A stretch of DNA of 64,000 bases from a bacterium (GTDB lineage Bacteria > Patescibacteriota > Minisyncoccia > Phycocordibacterales > UBA1006): the NCBI GenBank assembly GCA_030433255.1, contig JAUIMI010000002.1, positions 1-64,000 of the forward strand, written 5' to 3'. This document shows, piece after piece, positions 28,376 to 61,693 of the stretch. Position numbers and translations under genes: made by a program. The notes under the pieces were generated by a model. The model worked only from the letters and a program-made list of their open reading frames with translations. It did no database searches and was not told the origin of the DNA. The first letter of the stretch is position 1. Every line of letters begins with the position of its first letter.

Positions 28376-29593
28376 TTAAGTTATGAATGTGCCACCACCA
28401 ACAAGGTGCTCTGTCTCTAGTTTATCTTCTCTAATAGTACATTGATTAATCCATATTTTTTTAGATTCACCATCCTTTAAAGTAATAGTCCTCCAATGAC
28501 CCCTACGAACGTGTGGTGATTTTTCTGTCCCTACTCTTGAGATACCTAAATCCTCTCTTTGAAGTAAAGTAACACCTGTCTCATCTTCACTTATTCGATA
28601 CGTTTGAGTAACTGGGATTTTGATCCAGTTAAACGAGTCTTTTTCATTAAAGTCTTCAGATGCATCAATTTCACTAAAGATCTTTTTATAATCAGTTTTC
28701 TTTTTTAGGTTAGAAACTAATCTAATAAATCCATTTATCAATTGGATAATATCATAATCCTCAAGTATTTGTGATCCATTATCATTTTTGATAAGAGAAA
28801 GTTTTTCACCTTCGTTTAACAATGGCATTTCTAGCCTGTCACTACCCTCATATGCATGAATATGTAAACTGTCTTTATTTACTGAAAATCCAGTAAAACC
28901 TGGGTCTCCACCAAATATATTAAGATTCAAATAATCTCTCTCTTTAAATTTTTTACCAGAAGTAATATATTTATTGTACTTTTCAAATGTTTTTGAGTCT
29001 GGAACCAGTTCCTCTATTGCATGAGGTATTACCAAGAAATCTATAAAATCTTGATCTGAGCTTATTAAAATAGATGAAAAAGGTATTGCGTCCTCTTCTT
29101 GATCGAAGAAAAAAGTTTGGTTTAGGTTCAGAAAAAAACTTTCATATGGCATCTTATCAAGATAATTTTCTTTCAGAGGATTAAGAAATGGTATCAATTT
29201 AGGCTTATCTAAAACGAATACTCTTCTATTATCTAACCAATTATCCAAAATCATAGGAAAAAGTGCGATCGGAAAAGCATTAAGTCCTCTCACAAAATCT
29301 AATTGATCTATAGATGAGCCATACTTACTTGGAACCCGAGGAAGATAATTTAAATAATCAAATGTCTCATCGTCATTAATTAATCTTCTTAACTGCCTGT
29401 ATCCCTTGATTGGTTTCATAATGGCACCATGTTCATTTAATTCGCTCCCTACTTGAGGCAAGAAATCTAGTCTATCTTCGAAAAATCGCTTACCAGATTT
29501 TTTTTCCATTTTAATTCTAAGTTCATTTTGGAGCATTATAAATTCCCAAATCTTTAAGGTGTGATCTAAATCATTAAGGAATAAATATTTCAT
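28376..29593 (-). CDS. Unknown protein with C-terminal HVRRGHWR motif
   Basis: A 405-aa soluble protein with no signal or membrane segment. The C-terminal 50 residues contain SPHVRRGHWRTITL followed by KKIWINQC, a motif I associate from memory with a widespread family on plasmids and phages, some members of which are annotated AcrVA2-like. The rest (about 1-330) is unrecognised. Start at 29593 is a plain ATG with no strong ribosome site. It is monocistronic near the mobile region. A role in DNA or RNA binding by the basic motif is a guess. Confidence 0.6.
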   Translation of the reverse strand: MKYLFLNDLDHTLKIWEFIMLQNELRIKMEKKSGKRFFEDRLDFLPQVGSELNEHGAIMKPIKGYRQLRRLINDDETFDYLNYLPRVPSKYGSSIDQLDFVRGLNAFPIALFPMILDNWLDNRRVFVLDKPKLIPFLNPLKENYLDKMPYESFFLNLNQTFFFDQEEDAIPFSSILISSDQDFIDFLVIPHAIEELVPDSKTFEKYNKYITSGKKFKERDYLNLNIFGGDPGFTGFSVNKDSLHIHAYEGSDRLEMPLLNEGEKLSLIKNDNGSQILEDYDIIQLINGFIRLVSNLKKKTDYKKIFSEIDASEDFNEKDSFNWIKIPVTQTYRISEDETGVTLLQREDLGISRVGTEKSPHVRRGHWRTITLKDGESKKIWINQCTIREDKLETEHLVGGGTFIT

Positions 29594-29697
29594 AAGTTAT
29601 GTGTTTTTAATTATTATTGTACGTTTGAAAATTAATTCGATTTAAGGAAACTCTACCAGATTACTTGCTATTTGTAAATAGTATTGTTTAATTTATA

Positions 29698-29932
29698 AGA
29701 AGTTCCGTAGTCCCGAAAGCGGTATATGAAAAAACCCTTATAAATAAGGACTTTTTCAGCTGGGTGCCTTCTCGTGATGCGACCCCTGTAATTCATTGCC
29801 CTGCAATGCTTTTTTAATAGTTTTAGTATATCACAACTTAACCCTTCTCGTGCTTAGTTGTTTTCAAATAAAGTTACAAAAGTTACACAGATACGCGTTT
29901 TTAGAAAAAAGTTACATTAAGATGTAACTTTT
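29698..29932. repeat. Composite dispersed repeat
   Basis: The gene-free stretch 29594-29934 contains, from left, an AT-rich region without features, the left half of the MITE-like element (29701-29765), CCTTCTCGTGATGCGACC with CATTGCCCTGCAATG (29767-29810), a second CCTTCTCGTGCTTAG (29843-29857), AAAGTTACAAAAGTTACACAG (29869-29889 region) and a GTTACAT / ATGTAAC hairpin acting as terminator for the gene at 29935. The last three blocks recur in the same order at 42911-42993. Confidence 0.7.
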
Positions 29933-29934
29933 AT

Positions 29935-30894
29935 TTACTCCCCAGGACTTTTTGAAGAAATTAAATCAGCGATATTAAATGAAAGATTATTATTTGAAGT
30001 ACTTTCGGTCCCTAGAAATCCTGTTTGATTATGTGCAAAAACAGATTTAGTGGCTTCTAGAATTACTGTCTGACGTGCCTCAGAACCAACAGGTAATGCC
30101 TGCACAAAAAATGTAAAACTATTTTGTACATTTTGACGGTGTAGATTTAATGATTGAAGGTGTTTATTTGCCTTATACAGTTTTAACGATTGGAATAACC
30201 CAACAGATAGAATCGAAATAACGAGTGCTCTTAATGCTGTATGATATATAACGCTACCAACAACATCAAATTGAATATCTTTATGTCCATGAAACATAAT
30301 CCAAAGTAAGTAAACAACAAGGAAGAGCAAGAAAAGTCCTGATATTCCAATCCACCATTTTGAAGCTGTTTTATGTTTATCTGCTTGGCCTGAAAATACA
30401 CCCGCTTGAATACTTACACCTTTCTCTGCTGAATTCTCTCGTAGACTTTTTAATATTTTATCTGATTCCCTTTTTGATTTTTTAAGTTCAGCAATCAATG
30501 AATCAAAATTTTCTGGCTTTAAGTTAGCTAGTTTTACTGAGTTAATTAAACCAATATGATTTTTGTTGATTGAATCCCTGGTCTCATTTAATCTTCGAAT
30601 AATCTGTTCTCTTGTTTGAATATTATTCCGATCAGTTGCAGGATCAAATTTTAAAATTTTATCAGCTTCTGTAAGAAAATTAGTGATCAGTGATTTATAT
30701 AAACGTAAATCATCTACTCCATATAACTCATTATTTGGAATAATATTTTCTGAAATGAATACAAGATCAGAATGAATATCAACAATAAGATTTAAGTGTT
30801 CAGAAAATCCCAAGCTACTCAGGTCAGACCTTTCTAAGGCTCCAACATTCAACTCGAGCAACTCATCTATTTTTTTCGTAAGTTCTTGGTCCAT
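29935..30894 (-). CDS. Unknown membrane protein with coiled coil
   Basis: A 319-aa protein: an alpha-helical cytoplasmic N-terminal half (about 1-170, heptad-like Leu/Lys/Glu pattern), two membrane helices (about 183-203 and 218-240) and a helical C-terminal part (LYKANKHLQSLNLHRQNVQ). I do not recognise a family. The layout resembles membrane effectors of some defence systems, but no partner domain is visible. It lies 3 nt after a DUF2188 gene and shares its direction with the LexA-like gene, so the three form an operon. Confidence 0.65.
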   Translation of the reverse strand: MDQELTKKIDELLELNVGALERSDLSSLGFSEHLNLIVDIHSDLVFISENIIPNNELYGVDDLRLYKSLITNFLTEADKILKFDPATDRNNIQTREQIIRRLNETRDSINKNHIGLINSVKLANLKPENFDSLIAELKKSKRESDKILKSLRENSAEKGVSIQAGVFSGQADKHKTASKWWIGISGLFLLFLVVYLLWIMFHGHKDIQFDVVGSVIYHTALRALVISILSVGLFQSLKLYKANKHLQSLNLHRQNVQNSFTFFVQALPVGSEARQTVILEATKSVFAHNQTGFLGTESTSNNNLSFNIADLISSKSPGE

Positions 30895-30897
30895 ATT

Positions 30898-31137
30898 TTA
30901 ATATTTAGTATCTTTAATATTTCTCGGATCATTTCCTGGAGCAACTGTATCTGAATCTCTGATTTTTCCATCTAACCCATGAATTCTTACTTCTCCCCCT
31001 CCAGAATTTTTTGAAAATTCTTTGGCTGCTTGCTCAGCTTCTTTTTGGGTTCTAAAATTTCCTGAAGATTTTTTTCCTCCAGCTTTTTTAGCGTCCCAAC
31101 CTCCGTCAGGGTTTTTTGTAACATGATAATTTACCAT
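30898..31137 (-). CDS. DUF2188 protein
   Basis: A 79-aa DUF2188 domain: YHVTKNPDGGWDAKK, FRTQKEAEQAAKEF, a VRIHGLDGKI strand and GNDPRN. Function unknown. It is 4 nt from the LexA-like gene and 3 nt from the membrane protein gene, so it is translationally linked to both. Compare the diverged copy at 18956-19288. Confidence 0.8.
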   Translation of the reverse strand: MVNYHVTKNPDGGWDAKKAGGKKSSGNFRTQKEAEQAAKEFSKNSGGGEVRIHGLDGKIRDSDTVAPGNDPRNIKDTKY

Positions 31138-31141
31138 AATT

Positions 31142-31765
31142 TTATTCGTATAAATCCGCAGGTAATACCTCCTGTACTACCCCTTGGATAATTAAGTTTT
31201 CTGTTAATATGATTGGTTTATGATTTTTGTTAGTTGAATCGGGTTTCAAAATAACCATATCTCCTTTTTTTTCAAAAATTTTCACCGTAGCCTCATGATT
31301 GATGAGTGCAACAACTCGTTGTGAATTTTCAGCAAAATTTTGTTTTTTAATCAAAAGTAAATCTCCAGAATTAATTCCACTTTTATTCATAGAATCCCCC
31401 TCGGCTCTGAGAAAAAAATATTCATTCTGAGGCCTTGCAATTCTAGTTGATACTGGAATATAGGCATCAATATTTTCTTCTGCGAAAAGTGGTGATCCGC
31501 ATGGAACGAGGCCAAGGAGTGGAACATTAATCGTTTGTTCTGAAATAATAGATCTATGAGTCTCAGCAAGTTTTATTTCACGACCTTTTTTAATTAAAAG
31601 TTTTGCTTTAATAAGTCGATCTATAATAAGACTAGCTGAGCGAGGAGATTTACCACCTGTTATTTTGTTGATTTCACGCAATGTTGGTGCTTTACCGTAA
31701 CTAATAATTTGCTTCTTTATAAAAGCATATGCTTTTCTGTCTTTACTGCTTAAGTTATTCGTCAT
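31142..31765 (-). CDS. LexA-type SOS repressor
   Basis: A 207-aa repressor with an N-terminal LexA winged helix (about 8-65, APTLREINKITG) and a C-terminal S24 autocleavage domain: cleavage site Cys-Gly in GLVPCGSPLFAEE (about 85-97), nucleophile Ser in EGDSMNKSGI and Lys in HEATVKIF. The cut bond is Cys-Gly rather than Ala-Gly, as in some phage repressors. It likely represses itself through the inverted repeat at 31791-31808 and possibly the divergent element-A methyltransferase, linking mobility to DNA damage. Confidence 0.88.
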   Translation of the reverse strand: MTNNLSSKDRKAYAFIKKQIISYGKAPTLREINKITGGKSPRSASLIIDRLIKAKLLIKKGREIKLAETHRSIISEQTINVPLLGLVPCGSPLFAEENIDAYIPVSTRIARPQNEYFFLRAEGDSMNKSGINSGDLLLIKKQNFAENSQRVVALINHEATVKIFEKKGDMVILKPDSTNKNHKPIILTENLIIQGVVQEVLPADLYE

Positions 31766-31790
31766 AGGTATAAATAGTATACAAAATATT

Positions 31791-31808
31791 TTACTTTTTT
31801 GAAAGTAA
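31791..31808. promoter_or_regulatory. Candidate LexA-like operator
   Basis: Inverted repeat TTACTTT-TTTG-AAAGTAA, 25 bp upstream of the LexA-like start and 92 bp from the divergent methyltransferase start. Confidence 0.5.
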
Positions 31809-31900
31809 ATGATAAGCTATTAATAACAAATCGGAAGACTGTTTTTACCACTTATATCCCAGGTTGTTAATTTATTAAAAAAATTAATTAACGCAGAGTT

Positions 31901-33187
31901 ATGCAAAATAAACAGCTAGTCTGGAAAACTATCCAAAAAAGGGTTTTTGAGCTTGTTCCACAAGATATAAACCCTCGAACTATTTCAGATAAACAACTAT
32001 CTGACCTTAAAAAATCTATTAAAAAATATAACTTAGTAGAAATACCCGTTATTGACCTTGATAATAAGTTGTTAAGCGGACACCAAAGATGTCTTGCAAT
32101 GAAGATTCTGGGTCGCGAAGACGAACTCATCGATGTTCGAGTGCCAAATAGAAAACTAACAGATAAAGAAGCTAAGCAATACCTCATCGCCAGCAACAAA
32201 CTCGGTGGTGATTGGGATTATGATCTTCTCAGGCATTTTGATCTTGAGCTTCTTTCAGATGCAGGATTTGATGATATGGAATTGGTATCTTTTTGGGATA
32301 CAAAAAATGAATCAATGGATGATGACTTTGATGTAGATAAGGAAGTAAAAAAGATTCATAACCCAACAACAGAACGCGGTGATCTTATTATCATGGGCGA
32401 CCATCGATTACTCTGTGCCAGTGCTACAGATAACAATGCAGTAATTAAACTATTCAATGGAGATAAGGCATCAATGTATTACAGTGATCCTCCCTTTAAC
32501 ATAGGGCTTTCATATGACAAAGGTGTGGGGAATAAATCTAACTATGGAGGTAATGTTGATGATTCAAAAACACCAGAAGCATATAAGGAATTTATCAATC
32601 AAGCACTACAAAGTGCACTTCCAGTACTCACTGACGACACCCATGTCTTCATGTGGTGTGATGAAGCGTGGGTCTGGGTATTTCAGACACTCTACAATGA
32701 ACTAAATATTAAAAACAGGAGACTTAACATTTGGCTGAAAAATAATAGTTCACCAACACCAAATGTAGCCTTTAACAAAGCAACTGAGTTTTGCGTGTAT
32801 GGGACGATTGGATCTCCATTTCTTTCACCAGAGAAAACAAATCTCAATGAGATTCAGAATAAAGAAGCTGGTACCGGAAATGATCTGTATGACTGGGTTA
32901 CCAATGTATGGGCGACAAAGCGATTGGCAGGAACGAAATATAATCATCCGACTGAAAAGAATCCTGAACTTCATGAAAAAGCCATTCTTCGTTGTACCAA
33001 ACCAGGAGATATTATATTCGATTCATTTTCAGGATCAGCAAGCACTATGATCTGTGCAGAACAGCTCGGTCGAAAAGTATATGCAACTGAAATATCAGAA
33101 GTATTCTGTGACCTTGCAATTCGTCGCTATGAAAAACTTACTGGTAAAAAAGCTAAGATAATTAAAAACTACTATGAAGAAAGCTAA
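31901..33187 (+). CDS. ParB-like domain fused to DNA methyltransferase (element A)
   Basis: A 428-aa fusion. An N-terminal ParB/Srx-type domain (about 18-110; VEIPVIDLDNKLLSGHQR is the ParB box II-like strand-helix) is joined to an N4/N6 beta-class methylase (about 155-425) with catalytic SDPPFNIGLSY (about 194-204), FDSFSGSAST as the SAM site (about 374-383) and a NATEF-like KATEFCV segment. It probably methylates element DNA for self-protection. A near-identical paralogue is at 49438-50718. It overlaps the terminase small subunit gene by 14 nt. Confidence 0.9.
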   Translation: MQNKQLVWKTIQKRVFELVPQDINPRTISDKQLSDLKKSIKKYNLVEIPVIDLDNKLLSGHQRCLAMKILGREDELIDVRVPNRKLTDKEAKQYLIASNKLGGDWDYDLLRHFDLELLSDAGFDDMELVSFWDTKNESMDDDFDVDKEVKKIHNPTTERGDLIIMGDHRLLCASATDNNAVIKLFNGDKASMYYSDPPFNIGLSYDKGVGNKSNYGGNVDDSKTPEAYKEFINQALQSALPVLTDDTHVFMWCDEAWVWVFQTLYNELNIKNRRLNIWLKNNSSPTPNVAFNKATEFCVYGTIGSPFLSPEKTNLNEIQNKEAGTGNDLYDWVTNVWATKRLAGTKYNHPTEKNPELHEKAILRCTKPGDIIFDSFSGSASTMICAEQLGRKVYATEISEVFCDLAIRRYEKLTGKKAKIIKNYYEES

Positions 33188-33556
33188 GGTTACGAAACAG
33201 TTCTTAGAAGAACTCAAAAAGTTCCCATCGTTCAAGTTGCTTGTGAGAAAACAGGTATCTCACGAAACAGTGTGTATCGCTGGCGACGAGAAGACAAAAA
33301 TTTTGCAGAGGAAATGGATATCGCTATAGCAGAAGGAGTTGCCTTTGTGAATGATATGTCTGAGTCACAGCTTATGACACTCATTAAACAAGGTAATCTT
33401 GGAGCGGTACGACTCTGGCTTACCCACAACCATGAACGATATACCAAACGAGTTAAGGTCGAACATAGCCACAGTAATTATCAACTTTCAGAAGAAGAGC
33501 TTGATGACATATCTCAAGCTCTTGAAATGATTCATGGAAACCAAAGAGATTCTTAA
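33174..33556 (+). pseudogene. Terminase small subunit-like gene with frameshift (element A)
   Basis: The ATG at 33174 starts KKAKVTKQFLEELKK, as in the intact copy at 50705, but one A is missing from a run at 33216-33220 (A5; six needed), after which the product would be unrelated and stop early. The restored frame continues as SVYRWRREDKNFAEEMD, VNDMSESQL and IKQGNLGAVRLWL to a stop at 33556. The helix-turn-helix ISRNSVYRW suits DNA recognition by a terminase small subunit. An internal GTG at 33272 could give a truncated product lacking part of the helix-turn-helix. Confidence 0.75.
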
Positions 33557-34961
33557 AAAAGGAGTCACAAGAAGAAAGCTCTGTGAGCAAAGTCATAGAA
33601 TATTTTTCGCGAGTTATTTTTCAGAATACATTAAATATCCAAGTGCTGATTTTCACAGAAAGATCTTAGATGTTTCAGAAAATGAAGAATATGAATTTGT
33701 CGTTGTTACTGCCTTTCGGGGATCAGGTAAATCAACAATTATCTCTACCTCACTTCCAATATGGTCTATTGTTGGTAAACAGAAAAAGAAATTTATTATC
33801 ATCATTTCTCGTACCAAAGAACAGGCTAATTTGATTCTGAAAAATATTAAATCTGAACTTGAACACAATGGACTACTTAAAAAAGATTTTGGTCCTTTTG
33901 AAAGTACTGATGATGAATGGCGAAGTTCAAGTATCGTGATTCCAAAATACGGAGCACGTATTATGTCGATTTCTGAAGGTCAAAGTATTCGAGGTCTTAA
34001 ACATGGATCATATCGACCGGATCTCGTGATTTGTGATGACATTGAAGATGTGCAATCAACAAAAACTAAAGAAGGTCGATCGAAAACATATAACTGGTTT
34101 AACAGTGCTGTCATCCCAATTGGAGATATTGGTACTCGTACTATCATTATTGGGAATGTTGTTCACAGAGATTGCTTAACCTTAAAGCTCAAAGAACGAA
34201 TAGAGAATAGTGAGATTCAAAATGCCGTATATATGGAGTTTCCGCTTCTTGATAGTGAGGGTTATTGTCTTTGGAAAGAAAAATATCCTAATGAAGAGGA
34301 TATTACAAAACTAAGAGAAAGGATCTCGCATGATTACATCTGGGCACGAGAATATCTATTGCAGATCATACCTGATGCGGAACAAATTGTTCACAAAGAG
34401 TGGATACAGTATCACGATGGTATACCTCTACAAAAAAATACGTATTGTCGAGGTGTATTCGCTGGTGTTGATCTGGCAATCTCAACCAATGAAAGTGCTG
34501 ATTGTACAGCCCTTGTTGCTGCCCAGGTACATGGTTATCATGAACAGATTAAAATCCTAATTAAACCCGAGATTATTAATGACCGAATAGGATTTGCAGA
34601 ACAGATCGATGCCATCACCCTTTATTCAAACATACATATGACATCTCGAAGAGATACTGTATTTATTGAAAATGTTGGATATCAAGACGCTCTTACACAA
34701 ACACTAAGGACACATAGAGTGAATGCAGTCTCGGTACGTCCTCAGGGCGATAAACGTATGCGATTAAATATGACCACCCAAGCAATTCGTGACGGGATTA
34801 TTCTCTTCCCGAAACATGGATGCGAAGAGTTAATCGAACAACTTCTTGGATTTGGATATGAGAAGCATGATGATCTGGTCGATGCCTTTTCTCTGTTAAT
34901 AATTGAGTTACTTCATAAATTCTATACAAAAAAACGCCTTGTTGGGATCGTTGCGATATAG
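33534..34961 (+). CDS. Phage-type terminase large subunit (element A)
   Basis: A 475-aa DNA-packaging ATPase and nuclease. Walker A FRGSGKST (about 61-68), Walker B LVICDDIED (about 164-172) and the C-terminal RNase H-like nuclease with FAGVDLAIS, FIENVGYQ and HDDLVDAFS acidic residues. In phages it pumps and cuts DNA at a portal. No portal, capsid or protease gene follows; the gene converges on a small membrane protein. It overlaps the small-subunit gene by 23 nt. Confidence 0.88.
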   Translation: METKEILKKGVTRRKLCEQSHRIFFASYFSEYIKYPSADFHRKILDVSENEEYEFVVVTAFRGSGKSTIISTSLPIWSIVGKQKKKFIIIISRTKEQANLILKNIKSELEHNGLLKKDFGPFESTDDEWRSSSIVIPKYGARIMSISEGQSIRGLKHGSYRPDLVICDDIEDVQSTKTKEGRSKTYNWFNSAVIPIGDIGTRTIIIGNVVHRDCLTLKLKERIENSEIQNAVYMEFPLLDSEGYCLWKEKYPNEEDITKLRERISHDYIWAREYLLQIIPDAEQIVHKEWIQYHDGIPLQKNTYCRGVFAGVDLAISTNESADCTALVAAQVHGYHEQIKILIKPEIINDRIGFAEQIDAITLYSNIHMTSRRDTVFIENVGYQDALTQTLRTHRVNAVSVRPQGDKRMRLNMTTQAIRDGIILFPKHGCEELIEQLLGFGYEKHDDLVDAFSLLIIELLHKFYTKKRLVGIVAI

Positions 34962-34965
34962 TAAT

Positions 34966-34996
34966 GAAAAAAGCCATGCTAGTTTTGCAAGGCTTT
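34966..34996. terminator. Terminator-like hairpin
   Basis: AAAGCC / GGCTTT stem with an inner GC pair between the convergent genes ending at 34961 and 34979. Confidence 0.6.
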
Positions 34997-35671
34997 ATGA
35001 ATCCAGAAATAATCAGCAACCTCGGAAAGATTATCAGTGATGAATCCTTCCCAATTAATCTTCTCCCATGTTGATCGGTTAAAAGTAATCAGTCCTACTT
35101 TATCTTGTGAGGTATTTCCATATACATCAGTCAACGGTAGTGATGAACTAATATTTATTTCGTTAATATCTTCTGGAATATACTCTTGGATTGATTCCAT
35201 GATATCGATAGCATCAATCATGATACCTCGTCTCATCATTGCATTCGTAAAATTTTCTGATGCTTGATATTCGATGTACAGAGTATCTTCTTCGATATTA
35301 ATACCATCGATAATAGTATTTTTCCCAAGTGCTTCTTGTACCTGTGATTCCAAAGTTATTTCTTGTGGGACTTCAGCTATCTCAATTACTGGTTCAGAGA
35401 TAATTTCTTGTGATTCAGAAATCGGTTCATTTACCGTATCTTCTGGTAACGAGGAACCAAAATTTGAAAGAGCGACGAGAAGTAAGATAACTGAAGATAT
35501 GTAATATATCTTCTTTTTACTTTTCTTGTTCTTAGTAAATCTCTGAAAGAGATAGAATATGAGTGCGGTAGTAATAACGGCGATAAAGAAGTTTGATGCT
35601 GTTATTGAAGCAAGAAATATTGAGAGGATAAGGGATATGTCTTCAATATGTATGTTTTTTAAGTTTTTCAT
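34979..35671 (-). CDS. Membrane protein of unknown function (element A)
   Basis: A 230-aa protein with two or three hydrophobic segments (about 11-42 and 57-73), then an acidic Glu/Pro/Ile linker and a small alpha/beta domain (about 108-225) outside the membrane. No family recognised. Its 5-prime side faces the structured region 35682-35822, which may act as its leader. Confidence 0.6.
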   Translation of the reverse strand: MKNLKNIHIEDISLILSIFLASITASNFFIAVITTALIFYLFQRFTKNKKSKKKIYYISSVILLLVALSNFGSSLPEDTVNEPISESQEIISEPVIEIAEVPQEITLESQVQEALGKNTIIDGINIEEDTLYIEYQASENFTNAMMRRGIMIDAIDIMESIQEYIPEDINEINISSSLPLTDVYGNTSQDKVGLITFNRSTWEKINWEGFITDNLSEVADYFWIHKALQN

Positions 35672-35681
35672 TTTGGACGGT

Positions 35682-35822
35682 TTTTAATTAAGAAGGCTAG
35701 AAATTTTTATAAACAAAAAGCCCCTAGCCAGGTAGGTAGATCCCGTAAGAAATACCCATATCCGTTTCCAGATATGACCGTCCAAAGTTAACCCCTGACT
35801 AGGGGGTTTTTACTTTGGACGG
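35682..35822. other. Structured non-coding region upstream of recombinase A
   Basis: The gene-free stretch 35672-35985 holds two direct TTTGGACGG copies (35682-35690, 35814-35822) and one inverted copy (35778-35786); a long-range stem, AAAAAGCCCCTAGCCAGG (35715-35732) with CCTGACTAGGGGGTTTTT (35794-35811), 16 of 18 paired; and an inner hairpin CATATC / GATATG. The inverted 35778 copy and the right TTTGGACGG overlap the long stem as a pseudoknot or an exclusive alternative. Could be a switching RNA or a recombination site. Confidence 0.55.
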
Positions 35823-35927
35823 ATATTTGATTGGCATACCACAAATAAATTTATGGGTTAGCCAGTTATATTTAAAAGTATACTAAATCAACTGATCTAG
35901 TCTATTGAATTATATCGCCACTACTCT

Positions 35928-35969
35928 TGTTTGCTAAGAAAAGTTGCCAACAGTGGTGCTTAGCAAACA
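35928..35969. repeat. Perfect inverted repeat next to recombinase A start, candidate att site
   Basis: TGTTTGCTAAG (35928-35938) and CTTAGCAAACA (35959-35969) around a 20-bp centre that itself contains GTTGCCAAC. It ends 16 bp before the recombinase ATG. A matching CTTAGCAA...GCGACATAATG block precedes recombinase B. Confidence 0.55.
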
Positions 35970-35985
35970 CCTGTATTGCGACATA

Positions 35986-37278
35986 ATGATGTATATGGAT
36001 ACATCAAAAATACCTGTGAGATATTGTCTCTACGCGAGAAAATCTACTGAATCAGAGGAAAAACAAGTTCTCTCTATTGATTCACAAATACGAGAAATGG
36101 AACAAATAGCAGAGTCTCAAGGATTACAGATTTTTGTAAGAAAAGAAGAATCTCATTCCGCAAAAGCTTCTGGAAAACGTCCTGTTTTTCAAGAGATTTT
36201 AAAAGAGATTGATGAAGGTGTATACAACGGAATACTGACATGGGCACCTGATAGGTTAAGTCGTAACGCTGGCGACCTAGGATCCCTCGTTGACCTTATG
36301 GATCAAGGAAAACTGATTCATATTCAAACCTACGGACAAACCTTTTCAAATTCACCGAATGAAAAGTTTCTCCTGATGATTCTGTGTTCTCAGGCAAAGC
36401 TTGAAAACGATAACAAAGGAGTGAATGTTAAACGAGGATTACGTGCGAGATGTGAACAAGGACTATGGCCCTTTCGTCCACCAACAGGATATCTAAAATC
36501 TAATCATAAAGACGAGGGTTGTGTATGTTTAGTAGATCCGAAACGTGATCACATTATCAAAGAGATGTTTGAAAAAGTTGGTAATGAACGATGGAGTGGG
36601 AGAAAACTCCATAACTATTTGAAAAATGAAATTCATTTCAGAACACTTAATGATAAGCCGTTGAGTTTAGGTAATATCTATCGAACACTACAAAACCATT
36701 TCTACTATGGAAAGTTTGAGTATCCTCAAGGCTCGGATAACTGGTTTCAAGGAGTACATAAACCAATCATCACCAAGGAGCTATACGATGCTGTCCAAGA
36801 GCAATTAAATCGTCAGTCACTGGTTCGCAGATCAGATCCAAAAGACTTTGCTTTTACAAAATTAATGACCTGCGGTTTTTGTGGTTCGAGCATCACCGCT
36901 GATGAGAAGTACAAAGAACTCAAAGATGGAAGTGTAAACCGACATGTCTATTATCGCTGTTGCAAGTCGAGAAATCAGAATTGTAAAAATCCTGCGATTA
37001 ATGAAAACGATCTTATTAAACAAATCACTAAAGTTATCAAGGATGTAGGCATCAAAAATCTACCTATGCAAGAAAAAATCCGCTCTGATGTCGAGCGGAT
37101 TAAAAAGTTCCATGAAACTATTCTTGGAGAAAAAGCTCAGGTATTTTTGAAAGATATTAATACTCTCGCTTACGCTAAGTTTATTCTCAAAGAAGGCTCT
37201 CTTGAAGAAAAACGAGAAATCATGAATTGTTTGAAGGGGCAGTTGATTTTACAGGATAGAAAAACATCGTTAATTTAA
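35986..37278 (+). CDS. Large serine recombinase (element A)
   Basis: A 430-aa site-specific recombinase. N-terminal resolvase/invertase domain with YCLYARKSTESEE (catalytic Ser in ARKS), TWAPDRLSRN and LMDQGKL (about 10-150), then the recombinase domain (about 165-280) and a zinc ribbon (CGFCGSS ... CCKSRNQNC, about 290-335) with a coiled C-terminus. It integrates and excises DNA through a serine-DNA link. The ATG at 35986 matches the conserved start of the paralogue at 59654; upstream codons are not conserved. About 90% identical to that paralogue by eye. Confidence 0.93.
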   Translation: MMYMDTSKIPVRYCLYARKSTESEEKQVLSIDSQIREMEQIAESQGLQIFVRKEESHSAKASGKRPVFQEILKEIDEGVYNGILTWAPDRLSRNAGDLGSLVDLMDQGKLIHIQTYGQTFSNSPNEKFLLMILCSQAKLENDNKGVNVKRGLRARCEQGLWPFRPPTGYLKSNHKDEGCVCLVDPKRDHIIKEMFEKVGNERWSGRKLHNYLKNEIHFRTLNDKPLSLGNIYRTLQNHFYYGKFEYPQGSDNWFQGVHKPIITKELYDAVQEQLNRQSLVRRSDPKDFAFTKLMTCGFCGSSITADEKYKELKDGSVNRHVYYRCCKSRNQNCKNPAINENDLIKQITKVIKDVGIKNLPMQEKIRSDVERIKKFHETILGEKAQVFLKDINTLAYAKFILKEGSLEEKREIMNCLKGQLILQDRKTSLI

Positions 37279-37286
37279 ATAAAAAG

Positions 37287-37312
37287 ACCAACATTTCTGT
37301 TGGTCTAACTTG
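37287..37312 (+). terminator. Terminator of recombinase A
   Basis: AGACCAACA / TGTTGGTCT stem with a TTTC loop. Confidence 0.7.
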
Positions 37313-37359
37313 AGCTAGCAACTGCTCAGACTTTTTGTCTTTAGCTTATTTATATTTAA

Positions 37360-39798
37360 TTATTCCCAATCTAAAACAAGAGCCATCTTATTAAAAATTT
37401 CTTTATTTAAATCTTTAACGGTCTCATTAATGATTCTTCCTGCAAATGATCTACCAGATCCATACATTCCAAAATCTAAATCTCTAAACTTATTACCTCC
37501 AATAGAATAAAGAGCTTTTAATGAAGTTATACCGTATCTAGATAATAAAAATGTCCATTTATCAATTTCTACTTGAGATACGTATGGTAAATCTAGCACA
37601 TTAGAAAAATCTCTTAAATCAGAAAGTTTAGAAACCTTAATGGTTTTACCTAAAACAAGATTCAAAAAAGCCTTTCCTGTCCCAAAGATCCCAAATTTTT
37701 TACCTCTGAAATCCTTAATTCCGATATCTTTCAAATCTAAATATGAATATATTTGAGCCTTTGATAATTCCTGCTTCCATAAATTCATTTCTAGTTCAGA
37801 TACGTATGGTAAATCAAAATTATTAAATAGATCTAGAAGATGTGCATTTGTGAATCTATTCTTGTTAAAAGACTTATTACAAACCTTTTTATAAATATCA
37901 AAGCCGGTACCAATTTCACCAAAATCTCTATCACCAAAATCTCTCGCATTAGTTCTTAAAACATCTAATTGAGTAGCATAAAAAGGTATCAATTTCTTTT
38001 TATAAAAACTAATTACCTGATCTTGAGCACTCTCTAGAGGTAGCCCGACAACATAAGGTAAATTTAATGCTTTAGCAAAGTCAAACAAGATATCATAAGT
38101 GATTGTGCGTAGCATCTTTATATCCAAAACACTTTGAATAATTGAGTATGCTTTTAATCCATCAGAAAAATCTAATTTCATAAATTTAACTGGACCCAGC
38201 TTATATAGGTCTAAATAAGAAAAAATATTAATACTTTTTAGCTCTTCAATAATAAAATCATTTAAATTAATACATTCTTCTTCCCAATTCAAAAAATCAC
38301 TAATTTCTTCTAAGGTTGACAGGGTAATTCTATCGATAGTTTTATTTAAGATTAAACCAGCAAAAGAATATCCACCTCCAAAATCTCCAAAATAAGATTT
38401 TTTAAATCTATCTGAACCAAAGCGAATAAGATCTTTTCTTGAAAAAATATTATTTTTCTCAAGTTGTTTTTTTATCATTTCCCTTCTTTTAGTAACAGAC
38501 ATCTTTAAAAAAGAAACATCAAAGTTTTTTTCTAAAGAGATCTTCATTAGCTCTTCATGGGTAATTGAAACTTTCTTTATGATACCCATATTAAAACTAT
38601 CAATCTCATCTCTTGTTAGATAATCATAATTACCAGGATTCTCATCAGGCTCTTGAAATGAAACACCATCAAGTAGCTCATGATAGAATACCTGACCTTT
38701 TTGACCAACAAAATTTGGCATCACAACATATGCGAGTTTATCAGAATTATGATCATTAATTCTAAGAACACGACCATTACCTTGAATAATATCAACATAT
38801 GATTTAGCAGGGTATACAAACATTGAAACTGCAACACCAGGATCATCAAAACCTTCCTTAATTACACCAATACCAACCAAGACATCAAATTCATGTCTCT
38901 TAAAAGAATCAAATAATATTTTTCGGTCTTTTTGTTTGGTTTTAGCTGTAATCAATTTTGCTCGAACACCTTCTTTCTGAAGTGATCTAACAAGATCTTT
39001 ACCCTGGCGAACCGTAAGAGTAAACATAATCCCACGTAAATTTCGCTTTTTGAATGCTGAACGAAATAGTTTCGCTGCTGCAATATTTCCTCCTTTTCTG
39101 ATGATTTCACTTGCTAAACGTTGGTTGTATTCGGTTTGGGTTTCAGAATTCATTTTTTCTGAAATTTCAATATCAATATCAACCATACTTAACTGAACTG
39201 CACACAGCATACCCATTTTTATAGCCTCTCGAATAGAGATCTTATAAACCTCTTCACCAAGAAACTCTTGGAGGTTTTTTGTGCCTGAATAAGAAGATGA
39301 AGCAGTAAAACCAATAGTAACTGCGTTTTCTCTATGCTTAGTCAAATTTGCTCGTGTTAAATCTCCTAAACCTTTGTGAGCTTCATCCATCAATACAATA
39401 TTAAATCTATCTCGATTTTTTTGAGAAATTTTATTATATGAGGCATAGGTCATCACAACGATTTCACCACTCAAATCTCTATAGCTTCCGCCATAAAGAC
39501 TGTGACTTCGGTGAGGAATAAATCTAGTTAGCTCTTTAGATATTTGATCTAACAAATTTACTTTTGAGGTTAATAATAGTGTTTTCAGGTTTCTGGAATC
39601 AGCCATCATAGCATCAGCAATAACTGACTCTATGAAGGTCTTTCCCATTCCAGTAGGTCCTTCAATATACATTGAAGTAATACCTTTAGACAAAGTCTCA
39701 ATAATAGCCGAGTACACGGGGCCCTGTCCTTTTCTGAACGGAAAAGACGGAACATATGTACTAATATTGCTTTTAATCTGTGATAATATTTTTTCCAT
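37360..39798 (-). CDS. SF2 helicase with five C-terminal FG-type repeats
   Basis: An 812-aa protein. The DEAD/DEAH helicase core (about 15-400) has GPTGMGKT (47-54), DEAH (138-141), GFTASS and a motif VI-like GNGRVLR. After about residue 440 come five diverged repeats of about 70 aa, each with a helix, an I-x-S-x-x-D-L...G turn, F-G-x-F-G-x-G-x-x-F and ending in L-x-L-P-Y-V or L-x-W. The ATG at 39798 is chosen over 39843 because the paralogue's matching upstream DNA is non-coding. It is paralogous to the sigma-helicase gene and has a nearly identical promoter. Function unknown; transcription or defence is possible. Confidence 0.8.
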   Translation of the reverse strand: MEKILSQIKSNISTYVPSFPFRKGQGPVYSAIIETLSKGITSMYIEGPTGMGKTFIESVIADAMMADSRNLKTLLLTSKVNLLDQISKELTRFIPHRSHSLYGGSYRDLSGEIVVMTYASYNKISQKNRDRFNIVLMDEAHKGLGDLTRANLTKHRENAVTIGFTASSSYSGTKNLQEFLGEEVYKISIREAIKMGMLCAVQLSMVDIDIEISEKMNSETQTEYNQRLASEIIRKGGNIAAAKLFRSAFKKRNLRGIMFTLTVRQGKDLVRSLQKEGVRAKLITAKTKQKDRKILFDSFKRHEFDVLVGIGVIKEGFDDPGVAVSMFVYPAKSYVDIIQGNGRVLRINDHNSDKLAYVVMPNFVGQKGQVFYHELLDGVSFQEPDENPGNYDYLTRDEIDSFNMGIIKKVSITHEELMKISLEKNFDVSFLKMSVTKRREMIKKQLEKNNIFSRKDLIRFGSDRFKKSYFGDFGGGYSFAGLILNKTIDRITLSTLEEISDFLNWEEECINLNDFIIEELKSINIFSYLDLYKLGPVKFMKLDFSDGLKAYSIIQSVLDIKMLRTITYDILFDFAKALNLPYVVGLPLESAQDQVISFYKKKLIPFYATQLDVLRTNARDFGDRDFGEIGTGFDIYKKVCNKSFNKNRFTNAHLLDLFNNFDLPYVSELEMNLWKQELSKAQIYSYLDLKDIGIKDFRGKKFGIFGTGKAFLNLVLGKTIKVSKLSDLRDFSNVLDLPYVSQVEIDKWTFLLSRYGITSLKALYSIGGNKFRDLDFGMYGSGRSFAGRIINETVKDLNKEIFNKMALVLDWE

Positions 39799-39854
39799 TT
39801 TATATAATTTAGTTGTTATTGTACTTTTTTTGAATTTAATCAATATTTTGTAAG

Positions 39855-39883
39855 ACTATATCATATATATTGCTATTTGTAAA
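39855..39883 (-). promoter_or_regulatory. Promoter of the helicase gene
   Basis: TTTACA (39878-39883), a 17-bp spacer and TATAGT (39855-39860). About 100 bp around it are nearly identical to the promoter region at 42652-42752. Confidence 0.75.
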
Positions 39884-39897
39884 GCATATTGTGTAAT

Positions 39898-39927
39898 AAA
39901 AAACGACCTATTTCTAGATCGTTTTTT
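39898..39927 (-). terminator. Terminator of the sigma-helicase gene
   Basis: AAAAACGA / TCGTTTTTT stem with a partly paired loop (CCTATTTCTAGA). Confidence 0.65.
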
Positions 39928-39952
39928 CTTAATTTAATAAGATAATATAAAA

Positions 39953-42646
39953 TTATACTTCTACCACTATTTCTTGCTTAGAAGACTTAGTTAAGTTTAA
40001 TGCCTTACAAACATCACGCAATACGAGGGTGTCTATTTTTTTAATCTTCTTATTTAAAAGAAGACTAGCAAAATCTGCTCCCATTCCAAATTTACCAAAA
40101 GACGTAAATTCAAAATTTTGGACACCATAATTCATAACGTCTGGTAAAGAAACTAATTCGTGTTCCAGCATTCGTGCTTTAAACTCCTGAATTCTTTTTT
40201 CAGAATCCAGGGAATTTAAATATTGAGTAAAGTTATTTTCTTGAGAAATCTTGCTTAACTCCTCGTGATCAACGGATACATCAATAAGATCTTTAACATC
40301 AGCACTAATTTCTTCTAACTCTTCTTTTGAAACAAGGTCATAATTAATTTCATTCCCAGGCTCTGAAAAGTCAGTAAGAGCATCTACCCTTAACGCGTCG
40401 TTATCTTTCGATAAATTGGACGTTTCACTATCAACTGCATCATAACCAATAGAAGGTTCAGGTGAGTCATGTAGGTTAATTTGCTTATTTTCTTTAAACT
40501 TCAAACCTAGAATCTTATCATACAAAAAAGGATCTTTCTGTACTGGAACTCTAGTTTTTCTCGGTTTAATAAACGCAAGCCCATCAACTAATTCATGATA
40601 AAACTTTTGGTTTTGAACGTTTTTAAAATTAAACATAACGATATAAGCAAGCTTACTCTCGTTACCTTCTTCAATTCTAAGCACTCTACCATTTCCTCCA
40701 ATAATATCTGTCGTCGACTGCGTTGGGTAAACAAACATTGAAACTGCAACACCAGGATCATTGAATGATTCTTTAAGCAAATCAATACTAACCAAAACAT
40801 CAAATTCGTGATTAGAAAAACTTTCAAAAAGCTTTTTTCTATCAGAATATGAAATATGATTATCAACCAATCTAGCTTTTATTCCGTGATCAAGAAGAGT
40901 ATTTACCAAATCCTGACCTTGAGAAATAGTTAAAGCAAACATAACCCCACGTAAATTTCGAGATAAAAATATATCTCTAAATAAACGTGCAGCTGCAATA
41001 TTACCACCACTATGAATAATCTCTTCGGAAAGCAGATTATTGTAATCAGTAATTGATTCACCCTTTTGTCTTTCTTTGATACTAATATCAACAGACGCCA
41101 TAATGAATTGTACTGCACACAACATACCAAGCTCTATTGCTTCACGTATACTTATACGATATGCAAGAGTGCCTAAGAAACTTTGTAATTTCTTGCTTTC
41201 TTTTGAATTAGTAGCTGAGGTAAAACCAATAAGTACAGAAATACTTTTTTGATAAGAAAGCTTTTCAAATACTTTTTTACCTAGGCTTTTATGAACATCA
41301 TCAAGTAATAAAGTTTTAAATTGAGAAGTGCTAGCTAGAGTCATTTTCGCATAAACAGCATAACTCATAACAACAACGTCTCCAGATAAATCTTTATCTT
41401 TTGTACCATAAATAGATACTTTACGATTAGGAACAAATTTATTGAACTCAGCACGAATAAATTCAAAAGAATCAATTCGAGATGTAAGTAATAAAATTTT
41501 ACCTTTTTTAGTTGCTAAAATTGCATCTGCAACCAAAGCCTCAATAAATGTTTTTCCTATTCCAGTAGGTCCCTCAATGTACATCGAAGTAGTACCTTTT
41601 TTAAGGTTTTCAATTATTGAGTAGTAAATATCTGACTGACCTTCACGAAATGTTACCTGCGGAATGTACTTAGAAATATTTCTCTGAAGTACCTGTAAAA
41701 ATGCAGAGACTAACTGAGGAGATAAAGATACACCTCCAGCTTCAGTAGATGGAGCCAGTACTTGAAATGATTGAGGAATTTCTTTCCCAAACGTCTCATT
41801 AATTAAGCGAGAAATAGTATTACTACCTCGAAGTCTAGCCAAGGCTATAGCTTCCAGCTGTCTAATCCTTTCTCTTGTTACTCCATACATTTCGCCAATT
41901 TCTTCTAGAGTATATCGAGAACCATTTTGTAAACCAAAACGCATTCGCAATATTTCAAACTCCTTAGGTGAAACAATCTTATGTATTTCTTCAAGTAGAT
42001 CTACAGCGATAAGTCTCCAGTTTGTTGATTCATCAGTTGATAAGACATTCTTATCAGGGATAGTATCCTTAATCATAGATGCATCTTCTGATGAGCCAAG
42101 TTTCTTATCTAAACTAACAGTTCCTTGAGATAATTTTGATTCTATAAATAGAACGTCTTGTACCTCAATTCCCATCTTTTTAGCAATCAACTCAATTGGA
42201 GAATTATCGTCACCATTATTAGTATTTAAATTTTTCACAATTTTTTTATATTGTGAAATTTTTTCTACCATATGAACTGGCTTACGAATAGTAGCTCCAT
42301 TATCAGCAAGAAATCTTGTGATATTTTGACGAATCCACCAGGTTGCATATGTTGAAAATTTAAAACCTTTATCAATTTCAAATTTTTCCATAGCTTTCAT
42401 TAAGCCAATATTGCCTGCTTGAACAATATCCATAAATTCCAAAACTGAGTGATGATTAATCACAGAGCTATATCTCGAAGCAATAGATAATACTAATCGT
42501 AAATTTGAATTATAAAATCTATTCTTTGCTTTTTTATCTCCTGCTTGATATTTTTTTGCAAGATCTATCTCCTCTTCAACTGATAACAGCTGAAAAGATT
42601 TAGTGTACTTCTCGTAACTAGGTGTTACAGTTGAATGTTTTTTCAT
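39953..42646 (-). CDS. Sigma-70 factor fused to SF2 helicase
   Basis: An 897-aa fusion. Residues 8-280 are a complete group 1/2-like sigma-70: region 1.2 (EEEIDLAKKYQAGDKKAKNR), region 2 (NIGLMKAMEKFEIDKGFKFS, then STYATWWIRQNITR), region 3 (about 120-190) and region 4.2 helix-turn-helix (YTLEEIGEMYGVTRERIRQL, 245-264). After a linker comes a helicase with GPTGIGKT (359-366), but the DEAH box reads DDVH (449-452), then TSAT and GNGRVLR. One C-terminal FG-type repeat (about 820-885) ends it. The helicase part is paralogous to the neighbour at 37360. I know of no described sigma-helicase of this kind. DNA opening at promoters or phage-type takeover are possible roles (inference). Confidence 0.88.
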   Translation of the reverse strand: MKKHSTVTPSYEKYTKSFQLLSVEEEIDLAKKYQAGDKKAKNRFYNSNLRLVLSIASRYSSVINHHSVLEFMDIVQAGNIGLMKAMEKFEIDKGFKFSTYATWWIRQNITRFLADNGATIRKPVHMVEKISQYKKIVKNLNTNNGDDNSPIELIAKKMGIEVQDVLFIESKLSQGTVSLDKKLGSSEDASMIKDTIPDKNVLSTDESTNWRLIAVDLLEEIHKIVSPKEFEILRMRFGLQNGSRYTLEEIGEMYGVTRERIRQLEAIALARLRGSNTISRLINETFGKEIPQSFQVLAPSTEAGGVSLSPQLVSAFLQVLQRNISKYIPQVTFREGQSDIYYSIIENLKKGTTSMYIEGPTGIGKTFIEALVADAILATKKGKILLLTSRIDSFEFIRAEFNKFVPNRKVSIYGTKDKDLSGDVVVMSYAVYAKMTLASTSQFKTLLLDDVHKSLGKKVFEKLSYQKSISVLIGFTSATNSKESKKLQSFLGTLAYRISIREAIELGMLCAVQFIMASVDISIKERQKGESITDYNNLLSEEIIHSGGNIAAARLFRDIFLSRNLRGVMFALTISQGQDLVNTLLDHGIKARLVDNHISYSDRKKLFESFSNHEFDVLVSIDLLKESFNDPGVAVSMFVYPTQSTTDIIGGNGRVLRIEEGNESKLAYIVMFNFKNVQNQKFYHELVDGLAFIKPRKTRVPVQKDPFLYDKILGLKFKENKQINLHDSPEPSIGYDAVDSETSNLSKDNDALRVDALTDFSEPGNEINYDLVSKEELEEISADVKDLIDVSVDHEELSKISQENNFTQYLNSLDSEKRIQEFKARMLEHELVSLPDVMNYGVQNFEFTSFGKFGMGADFASLLLNKKIKKIDTLVLRDVCKALNLTKSSKQEIVVEV

Positions 42647-42703
42647 GTTTATATAATTTAGTTGTTATTGTACTTTTTTTGAATTTAATCAATATTTTGT
42701 AAG

Positions 42704-42732
42704 ACTATATCATATATATTGCTATTTGTAAA
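42704..42732 (-). promoter_or_regulatory. Promoter of the sigma-helicase gene
   Basis: TTTACA (42727-42732), a 17-bp spacer and TATAGT (42704-42709), followed by a leader of about 55 nt. Nearly identical to the promoter at 39855-39883. Confidence 0.75.
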
Positions 42733-42764
42733 GTATATTGTGTAATAAATATAATAACTAAATC

Positions 42765-42789
42765 AAAAAACACTCATAGAGTGTTTTTT
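42765..42789. terminator. Perfect terminator hairpin
   Basis: AAAAAACACTC / GAGTGTTTTTT with an ATA loop. Together with the trailer after it, it resembles the tRNA-His terminator region. Confidence 0.75.
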
Positions 42790-42806
42790 GCTTGTACTAA
42801 AACAAA

Positions 42807-42960
42807 CCTTCTCGTGCTAGCACTAAATGGGGTGCGTTCTCGTGATGGAACGGTGACAATACATTGCAGGGCAAGGTTATTTCAATGATTTTATACTTTT
42901 ACCTCCCGACCCTTCTCGTGCTTAGTGAATTTCAAAAAGTTACAAAAGTTACACAGAATA
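42807..42960. repeat. Dispersed repeat and left 28-bp att-like direct repeat
   Basis: Bases 42807-42834 are identical to 61597-61624, which covers the 3-prime end and trailer of tRNA-His. CGTTCTCGTGATGG and CATTGCAGGGCAAGG follow, then CCTTCTCGTGCTTAG (42911) and AAAGTTACAAAAGTTACACAG. The gene-free stretch 42647-42991 contains only this, the terminators and the promoter. Confidence 0.8.
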
Positions 42961-44621: not shown

Positions 44622-45611
44622 TTAATCATTCATTATCATAAAATATTTCTCTGGGTGCCATTCTACATCACGGTCAGAAAGTTTTGGTGCCATAGATGGA
44701 TTTGTAGGATATCCAGAATCCGTATGCTCAAGAAGTCTATACGAACCGTCACTCCATACCACAATATCTTTCCATTGATTTGATTTTTCATAGTTCTGCA
44801 TCAAGATTGGTTTTCGGGTCACAGTGAATCTATTTATAACCTGATCATCACCATTAACCATTACCACGGTACATCCACCTGATCCACAATAGTCAGGACC
44901 CTCAAGGAAAAAGAGATATTCTTGTGTTTCCCAGTTACTATCTGCATCAATGTATTTTTCAGTTACTGTTGTGGTTTCTTGTAACCGAGGATTATCCATA
45001 ATAACTGCGATTCGATCGTACATATCTTGGTCATTTTTTTCTGTAGAAGAATAACTTTCCCATTGTAGATACATTTCATCAAGCCATTCATCTACCTGAG
45101 AACAATCGATAGGTTTTTCTGGAAAATCTGTGTTCCAGATTACTTCATCAAGATTTTCATAATCTTCGATATTGCCACCGAGCTGCGCTTCAGTGTATCC
45201 ACTTATAAGCGTATTATCTTGGAATTTCCAAATCTGACTATTTGTATATGATGTTCCTTCTCCATACGATGACTCCGTTGCTCTAATAACCTCGTTTTCT
45301 TTGTCATAGGTTCCTAAGATTGAAGAAACGCCACTATCAGTACCATATGGGTGATAGCGAGAATAACCTTCTACAAATTCTGGATTAGAAATATCTAATA
45401 CCAGTATTGAGTATGAATATCCTCCTGAGTCATTATCAAAATATTGATGGAAACTTCGATCACCAAAACAGAGCAACTTTTCAGTATCTACCATTGGTAT
45501 GTTAGAAGCAGGTATGGTCGTTTCTATTTTTTCTGATTTATTTATTTGCAAATATATAATACTGGCAATTCCGATCAGAATAATTGTTCTAATAATGTGT
45601 TTTATTTTCAT
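44622..45611 (-). CDS. Secreted or membrane-anchored protein, paralogue of 11257-12261
   Basis: A 329-aa protein closely similar to the gene at 11257 over its whole length (LCFGDRSFHQYF, RYHPYGTDSGVSS, EGPDYCGSGGCT, VEWHPEKYF). One N-terminal hydrophobic segment (about 6-22). Function unknown. It lies 2 nt after a nuclease-like gene in the same direction. The divergence between copies looks larger in the N-terminal linker and small in the domain core, consistent with an old duplication. Confidence 0.75.
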   Translation of the reverse strand: MKIKHIIRTIILIGIASIIYLQINKSEKIETTIPASNIPMVDTEKLLCFGDRSFHQYFDNDSGGYSYSILVLDISNPEFVEGYSRYHPYGTDSGVSSILGTYDKENEVIRATESSYGEGTSYTNSQIWKFQDNTLISGYTEAQLGGNIEDYENLDEVIWNTDFPEKPIDCSQVDEWLDEMYLQWESYSSTEKNDQDMYDRIAVIMDNPRLQETTTVTEKYIDADSNWETQEYLFFLEGPDYCGSGGCTVVMVNGDDQVINRFTVTRKPILMQNYEKSNQWKDIVVWSDGSYRLLEHTDSGYPTNPSMAPKLSDRDVEWHPEKYFMIMND

Positions 45612-50718: not shown

Positions 50719-51112
50719 GGTTACCAAACAATTCTTAGAAGAACTGAAGAAAGTTCCGATCGTTCAGGTGGCTTGTGAGAAGACAGGAATCTCACGAAAT
50801 AGTGTGTATCGATGGCGACGAAAAGACAAAAAGTTTGCAGAGGAAATGGATATCGCTATGACTGAGGGCGTGGCTTTTGTAAACGATATGTCAGAAAGTC
50901 AGTTACTCACAATGATCAAAGAGAAATCTTTTCCTGCGATACGTTTTTGGTTGCAACATCGAAATGATAACTACAGAAACAAGCTTGAAGTTACGACCAA
51001 AGAACGAGTTGATGAACTCACTCCTGAACAGCAAAAAGTTGTTAAACAGGCACTTAAACTCGCTTCATTAACGAAGCAAAAATCTATTAGAAGAATTAAG
51101 AATAACAAATAA
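50705..51112 (+). CDS. Terminase small subunit-like protein (element B)
   Basis: A 135-aa protein with an N-terminal helix-turn-helix (VACEKTGISRNSVYRWRR, about 20-37), a helical middle (AEEMDIAMTEGVAFVND) and a basic C-terminus. The pattern and the place before a large terminase fit DNA recognition for packaging. It is intact, unlike the element A copy. Confidence 0.8.
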   Translation: MKKSKVTKQFLEELKKVPIVQVACEKTGISRNSVYRWRRKDKKFAEEMDIAMTEGVAFVNDMSESQLLTMIKEKSFPAIRFWLQHRNDNYRNKLEVTTKERVDELTPEQQKVVKQALKLASLTKQKSIRRIKNNK

Positions 51113-53599: not shown

Positions 53600-53654
53600 G
53601 ATATTTTCACTTGATATGATAGAATCATAGTTATTATGACTGTTAAAAATGCTA

Positions 53655-53665: not shown

Positions 53666-53676
53666 GACAACCTGTC

Positions 53677-61596: not shown

Positions 61597-61624
61597 CCTT
61601 CTCGTGCTAGCACTAAATGGGGTG
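61597..61624. repeat. Right 28-bp att-like direct repeat at the tRNA-His 3-prime end
   Basis: Identical to 42807-42834 (CCTTCTCGTG ... GGGGTG). Covers the last acceptor base, discriminator, CCA and 21 bp of trailer. Confidence 0.8.
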
Positions 61625-61693
61625 GCCACAGGGAATCGAACCCTGATTGCAGGTACCACAAACCCGAGTAATAACCGTTATACCATGGCCACC
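61618..61693 (-). tRNA. tRNA-His (GTG anticodon)
   Basis: Acceptor stem GTGGCCA / TGGCCAC, D-arm GTAT...TTAC, anticodon stem CGGGT / ACCTG with loop TTGTGGT (anticodon GTG), T-arm CAGGG-TTCGATT-CCCTG. The His-specific G-1 (61693) faces C73 (61621) and the CCA end is encoded (61620-61618). Confidence 0.96.

Follow-up and report, generated by a model that had tools for sequence, protein, structure and literature searches.

A sigma-70 factor joined to a degenerate SF2 helicase core at the head of a phage-like element in a patescibacterial genome

Introduction

Sigma-70-dependent transcription opens promoters without ATP hydrolysis; sigma-54 systems and eukaryotic RNA polymerase II use separate ATPases. 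What, then, is to be made of a gene which seems to encode a sigma-70 factor and an SF2 helicase in one polypeptide? Such a gene was noticed in a draft assembly (6 contigs) of a tiny, uncultured Patescibacteria (Paceibacteria) genome. We asked whether the fusion is real, what its two halves have retained, and which function would fit its surroundings. The window denotes the whole stretch of 64,000 nucleotides that was analysed.

The fusion gene

The gene, P0001, has the following parts.

39953..42646, minus strand: sigma-helicase fusion gene P0001, 897 aa (ORF analysis, Pfam)
41804..42619, minus strand: sigma-70 half, residues 10-281, regions 1.2, 2, 3 and 4, without region 1.1 (Pfam, RpoD alignment, AF2)
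41747..41803, minus strand: post-sigma tail, residues 282-300, INETFGKEI... (sigma sequence comparison)
40559..41686, minus strand: SF2 helicase core, residues 321-696, RadD/XPB-like fold, motifs II, V and VI degenerate (Pfam, alignment, AF2, structure comparison)
41291..41302, minus strand: motif II DDVH, residues 449-452, instead of DEAH/DEVH (alignment)
39995..40225, minus strand: single FG-type repeat, about residues 808-884 (repeat comparison)

The open reading frame listed in the first-pass annotation is real, with the correction that it has to be read on the minus strand. There an ATG at 42646 opens a single 897-aa frame which runs to 39953; the plus strand across 39953-42646 is packed with stops. 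Pfam places the sigma regions, a ResIII/DEAD domain (residues 331-485) and a Helicase_C domain (566-658) in this one frame, as had been claimed for a complete sigma-70 plus SF2 helicase fusion. In an AF2 model built on a 13-row alignment (mean pLDDT 67.8) the sigma helices are well formed, with pLDDT mostly 75-90, the two RecA lobes reach about 80-93, and the linkers are disordered.

An assembly or annotation that wrongly joined two genes would be a trivial explanation. The draft state of the genome speaks for it, and nothing further in its favour was found. Against it stand the single frame and the codons 270-345, which hold not one ATG, GTG or TTG, so that no start codon is available to the helicase half close to where its N-terminus would naturally lie. 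Further, P0001 sits in the interior of a 303-kb contig, and a second sigma-SF2 fusion with the same post-sigma junction tail occurs in an independent genome of another family. A false join is therefore hardly credible. P0001 is a true sigma-helicase chimera, i.e., a new domain architecture made from known parts. The earlier remark that no protein of this kind had been described agrees with our search of the open-access literature (subscription journals and bioRxiv lie largely outside it), in which no sigma-helicase fusion was found.

The sigma half

Pfam assigns Sigma70_r1_2 to residues 18-38, r2 to 44-117, r3 to 128-206 and r4 to 226-273. The scores of r2 (64.4 bits) and r4 (53.4 bits) are over the cut-off, that of r3 (21.8 bits) is just under the curated value of 25.3. 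The NCBIfam RpoD model yields 258 bits, below its equivalog cut-off of 572. Among solved structures, SigA/RpoD chains come closest to residues 1-280. An alignment with RpoDs demonstrates conservation of FSTYATWWIRQ.ITR, TIR.PVHMVE and TRERIRQ, and across regions 2.3-2.4 P0001 shares 20 of 26 residues with the RpoD of its own genome. Regions 2.4 and 4.2 thus retain their promoter-contact motifs (WWIRQ.IT, PVHMVE, TRERIRQ), and the claim of intact promoter recognition motifs holds for these two regions.

The proposed set of regions 1.2, 2, 3 and 4 stands as well and makes this half a near-complete sigma-70 of primary type, with two corrections: region 1.1 is missing, and region 2.2 reads D-I-V-Q-A-G-N, i.e., QAGN replaces the QEGN of the aligned RpoDs. 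The Glu is kept in all of these and in the second fusion. This exchange may weaken binding of the core polymerase, and it is mainly because of it that core binding is in doubt at the sequence level. By its regions P0001 would be classed as a sigma-70 factor outside group 1 (housekeeping); a separate RpoD is encoded in the same genome at C4:249134-249919, and region 1.2 of P0001 begins at residue 18.

The helicase half and its paralogue

The neighbouring gene P0002 encodes a helicase of the same type.

37360..39798, minus strand: P0002, paralogous helicase with DEAH and five FG-type repeats, no sigma (ORF analysis, alignment, repeats)

The Walker A motif (GPTGIGKT), the DDVH in place of DEAH and the single FG-type repeat of P0001 were all seen as first described. 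To these the altered motifs V and VI must be added. Among nine aligned helicases P0001 is the only one with DD for DE in motif II, i.e., with loss of the catalytic-base Glu, and it is unique in having SFN for G-F/I-D in motif V and GGNGRVLR, without the Gln, in motif VI. The other eight keep the residues which P0001 lost; P0002 retains DEAH and QGNGRVLR. Of the SF2 hallmarks P0001 has the two RecA lobes and Walker A; DExH and QxxGRxxR are absent. Because motifs II, V and VI are degenerate the ATPase of P0001 is probably weak or dead. The notion of a sigma factor that carries its own ATPase is accordingly doubtful; the intact ATPase motifs are found next door, in P0002.

In structure comparisons the best matches of the helicase are the XPB of a Pol II pre-initiation complex (Z 27.6, 3.5 A, 380 residues, the aligned range beginning within the sigma half) and RadD (Z 26.5, 3.8 A, 322 residues); other SF2 chains are close behind.

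P0002 adjoins P0001 and is 52% identical to its helicase core. Its start is probably the ATG at 39798, the frame being open up to a TTG at 39843. At the nucleotide level the helicase coding regions are 59% identical and 32 of 78 four-fold sites match (41%), which amounts to saturation. The FG-type repeats of about 74 residues, five in P0002 versus one in P0001, correspond to no Pfam family, have no copies across 20 genomes of the family and are left unresolved by AF2 in P0002 (pLDDT about 35).

Non-fused relatives of the helicase were found at 3 loci in 84,980 species genomes, none joined to a sigma factor. More distant relatives (L058-L060) were considered as further fusions and ruled out, again for lack of a fused sigma. 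One relative (L062, 4072-7398) lies directly behind rpoC-dnaG-rpoD, 538 nt past rpoD on the same strand; another (L064, 5971-11570, same record as G006) lies directly before rpoB. These two positions hint at a link of the helicase family with RNA polymerase, and from such neighbourhoods a sigma-helicase fusion could physically arise. The C-terminal repeats have been exchanged between relatives: L063 has five Integrase repeat units (PF14882), P0004 has WMTAS...EHYAPEL, P0001 and P0002 have the FG type. No phage relative of the helicase exceeds about 25% identity among the best matches listed.

A second fusion

A second sigma-SF2 fusion emerged from 297 genomes of the order: P0003, 796 aa (G053:C6), from another family. 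Its sigma appears to belong to the accessory lineage of P0001. A tree groups the two with support 95/98; both branches are long and long-branch attraction is possible. Among 58 patescibacterial sigmas sampled only the two fusions have a spacing of 24 residues before region 2.2 (21 residues in 53 of 58), and the ETFG tail is absent from the other 56.

Beyond the sigma the two proteins differ. The helicase of P0003 falls into a different SF2 subfamily (type IV restriction-like) and retains DEAH and motif VI; the gene adjoins an IS30 transposase and lies outside the element that carries P0001. This leaves two histories: an accessory sigma that fused with helicases on two occasions, or a fusion in which the helicase was replaced. 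A P0002-like neighbour was not seen near P0003. With its motifs intact and no such neighbour in sight, a dead helicase plus a partner is not a general arrangement.

The architecture is rare. A sigma profile made from the two fusions retrieved both at E about 1e-180 from 397 genomes of the order, the best other sigmas reaching 5e-90; in 380 genomes of the phylum only the copy in the window fell below 1e-88. Two fusions were thus seen among 297-397 order and 380 phylum genomes, a count which applies to the matches listed in overlapping samples drawn evenly from larger groups, and which can miss divergent fusions. Additional sigma matches in G003 and G008 were left out; they are partial or markedly unlike the RpoD of the order and may come from contaminant contigs. 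IMG/VR contained no close homologue of the whole fusion, and no plasmid record covered 80% of P0001. Sigma relatives in IMG/VR were considered as candidate fusions; those examined are ordinary RpoDs without helicase.

As a separate observation, another unusual sigma, from a genome of the same family (G002), joins sigma-70 regions to the C-terminal DNA-binding domain of DnaA (L025:113-1351; PF08299, E 3e-19). Here the spacing before region 2.2 is 26 residues.

The mobile element

P0001 is the first gene of an element, E1, and lies just inside its att repeat.

29767..42834: element E1, about 13 kb, carries P0001 (left end inferred from the resemblance of 29.7-29.9 k to 42.8-42.9 k)
35944..37278, plus strand: large serine recombinase of E1 (PHROG integrase)
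33534..34961, plus strand: terminase large subunit (TerL) of E1 (PHROG comparison)
31901..33187, plus strand: ParB-N / DNA methyltransferase of E1 (PHROG comparison)
31142..31765, minus strand: LexA-like S24 repressor of E1
42807..42834, minus strand: att repeat CACCCCATTTAGTGCTAGCACGAGAAGG between E1 and E2, just upstream of P0001
61597..61624, minus strand: att repeat at the tRNA-His 3' end, exact 28-nt copy of 42807-42834
61618..61692, minus strand: tRNA-His (gtg), integration target

The att core TAGYGCTAGCACGAGAAGG has four sites in the genome at up to 2 mismatches, and none with the reversed pattern as control. All four are on the minus strand of the window, at 61597, 42807, 19291 and 17882. 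Repeats at tRNA-His together with internal copies are what remains when elements integrate in tandem at the 3' end of a tRNA. E1 (about 29.8-42.8 k) and its neighbour E2 (42.8-61.6 k) lie in tandem, and the stretches at 29.7-29.9 k and 42.7-42.9 k are alike over about 300 nt. Both elements have a ParB-methyltransferase, a TerL (48% identical) and a large serine recombinase; the set of ParB-methyltransferase, TerS, TerL and recombinase is also present on short IMG/VR contigs. No capsid gene was recognised in E1. With a recombinase and direct repeats at a tRNA end E1 is classed, by its sequence, as an integrative phage-like element.

Compared with the intact terS of E2 (50705-51112), that of E1 (33150-33540) has a frameshift close to its start. 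The att cores at 19291-19309 and 17882-17900 suggest that the array once extended to about 17.9 k; groEL (22589-24229) and a small heat-shock gene accordingly lie between att copies. Dating the array by synteny with relatives was tried and given up, as the region is rearranged and the backbone genes reveal only a variable area. E2 also harbours a diversity-generating retroelement (52655-55193) with a reverse transcriptase ORF, a bAvd-like protein (53677-54012), a template (54052-54167) and a variable repeat (54528-54643) within ORF 54504-55193; 17 of 17 differences between template and variable repeat fall on template adenines. Two clearly similar secreted or membrane-anchored proteins are encoded at 11257-12261 and, within E2, at 44622-45611.

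A shared promoter and leader cassette

P0001 and P0002 are preceded by nearly identical sequences.

42704..42732, minus strand: P0001 promoter, TTTACA-17-TATAGT with extended -10 TG (29/29 identical to the P0002 promoter)
42634..42749, minus strand: P0001 promoter and 5' leader cassette (98/99 nt match to that of P0002)
39785..39900, minus strand: P0002 promoter and leader cassette, promoter at 39855-39883 (sequence comparison)
29650..29678, minus strand: third promoter copy, TTTACAAATAGCAA-N6-TGGTAGAGT, 57 nt before ORF 28376-29593 (genome-wide pattern search)
28376..29593, minus strand: 405-aa protein behind the third promoter copy (ORF analysis)

Over 99 nt of upstream sequence P0001 and P0002 (the latter counted from the ATG at 39798) differ at a single position. 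The pattern TTTACAAATAGCAA-N6-TGRTAKAGT, allowing up to 3 mismatches, has three matches in the 812-kb genome and none in the control. They precede P0001, P0002 and the 405-aa ORF, all within the array and 57-58 nt before the start codon. The 405-aa protein has no Pfam or PHROG match; its gene and the third promoter copy mark the start of an older element remnant. In IMG/VR the full pattern gave zero matches, and a 14-mer query was too unspecific.

This arrangement strongly suggests that P0001 and P0002 are co-regulated. The simplest idea is that the sigma of P0001 itself would control the cassette. The promoter is near the ordinary extended -10 sigma-70 consensus, and RpoD could read it. Since the third copy sits at the equivalent place of an older remnant, the cassette may instead be an inherited, conserved end of the element, or have been kept by gene conversion, rather than represent a sigma regulon. 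The suggestion that P0001 is a selfish regulator gains from its position: it leads a recombinase-bearing phage-like element, and the shared cassette is confined to the array.

Proposed function

We propose, with a probability of roughly 0.42, that the element encodes P0001 as an accessory sigma factor which steers the host RNA polymerase to promoters of the element itself, the helicase half serving to dock P0002 or DNA. When the element is active P0001 would displace RpoD on the host polymerase, and the resulting holoenzyme would fire the few promoters of this type, those of P0001, P0002 and the 405-aa gene. The helicase half would not translocate by itself and would act as a DNA-binding or hetero-docking module; a docked P0002 would be brought to the polymerase or to the DNA of the element. 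In this way the element would possess a transcription switch of its own, one that amplifies itself and is coupled to a helicase. That P0002 is the partner we infer from proximity, paralogy and the shared promoter.

Other readings must be weighed against this. The sigma half might be no more than an anchor by which P0001, together with P0002, hands an SF2 motor to the host polymerase; like RapA or Mfd, the motor would then serve in recycling, eviction or repair coupling, without any choice of promoters. The helicase relatives next to RNA polymerase genes would fit, as would Mfd and RadD among the close folds; yet a mere tether needs neither region 2.4 nor region 4.2, both of which are kept, and the motor motifs of P0001 are degenerate, so we regard this as unlikely. 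Slightly less likely still is that P0001 is a defence protein, a sigma-tagged helicase which senses or disrupts invading transcription or DNA. Phage-like elements do carry such cargo, e.g., the type III restriction-modification genes in neighbouring E2, and MzaA, PbeA and type IV restriction helicases are weakly similar. However, P0001 and P0002 lack effector domains such as nucleases, PADLOC and NCBIfam models gave no match at a meaningful level, and a conserved defence neighbourhood was not found.

About as unlikely is a relic without present function, left by a chance fusion within a tandem duplication on a decaying element. The degenerate helicase motifs, the frameshifted terS of E1 and the rarity of the fusion (2 in about 400 genomes of the order) would be expected of one. 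But 897 codons are still open despite divergence to 41% identity at four-fold sites, the promoter cassette is retained at 98/99, and in another family a sigma of the same accessory lineage is likewise joined to a helicase. Least probable among the functional readings is a far bolder one, a self-contained bacterial initiation factor in which the sigma brings an XPB-like translocase, its own or, more likely, a P0002 docked on the degenerate half, for ATP-driven opening or selection of sigma-70-type promoters. It would be a bacterial counterpart of TFIIH from mobile elements of Patescibacteria; we consider it a long shot.

The locus deserves attention. Here a natural sigma is physically linked to an SF2 core, and an intact paralogue stands behind the same promoter; this makes it testable whether mobile elements have built an ATPase-coupled sigma-70 switch. 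It would also hint at how elements capture the host RNA polymerase in ultra-small bacteria with few regulators.

Comparison with known systems

With RpoD/SigA-like sigma-70 factors (groups 1 and 2) P0001 shares regions 1.2, 2, 3 and 4, and it is about 45% identical to the RpoD of its own genome. It differs by the absence of region 1.1, a 3-residue insertion before region 2.2, the QAGN and a C-terminal extension of 620 residues with the helicase. With RadD/YejH and the XPB of TFIIH it has the two-RecA fold in common; motifs II, V and VI are degenerate and the C-terminal repeats are of another type. Against the curated RadD score of 720 (NF053632) P0002 attains 64.2 bits, and for P0001 the RadD model is not among the 25 families listed; against that of XPB (610, NF045503) P0002 attains 33.7 bits.

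MzaA, the sigma-like protein of the MZA anti-phage system, likewise has a sigma-70 domain and belongs to a mobile or defence context. P0001 scores 241.5 of the curated 800 bits, and no other MZA genes were seen. To our knowledge MzaA has no fused helicase. Phage sigma factors, e.g., those of group 2 jumbo phages (PMC7824862), are stand-alone proteins, and the passages on them mention no fused helicase. The likeness to P0001 lies in the principle: a selfish element supplies a sigma factor that steers the RNA polymerase of its host.
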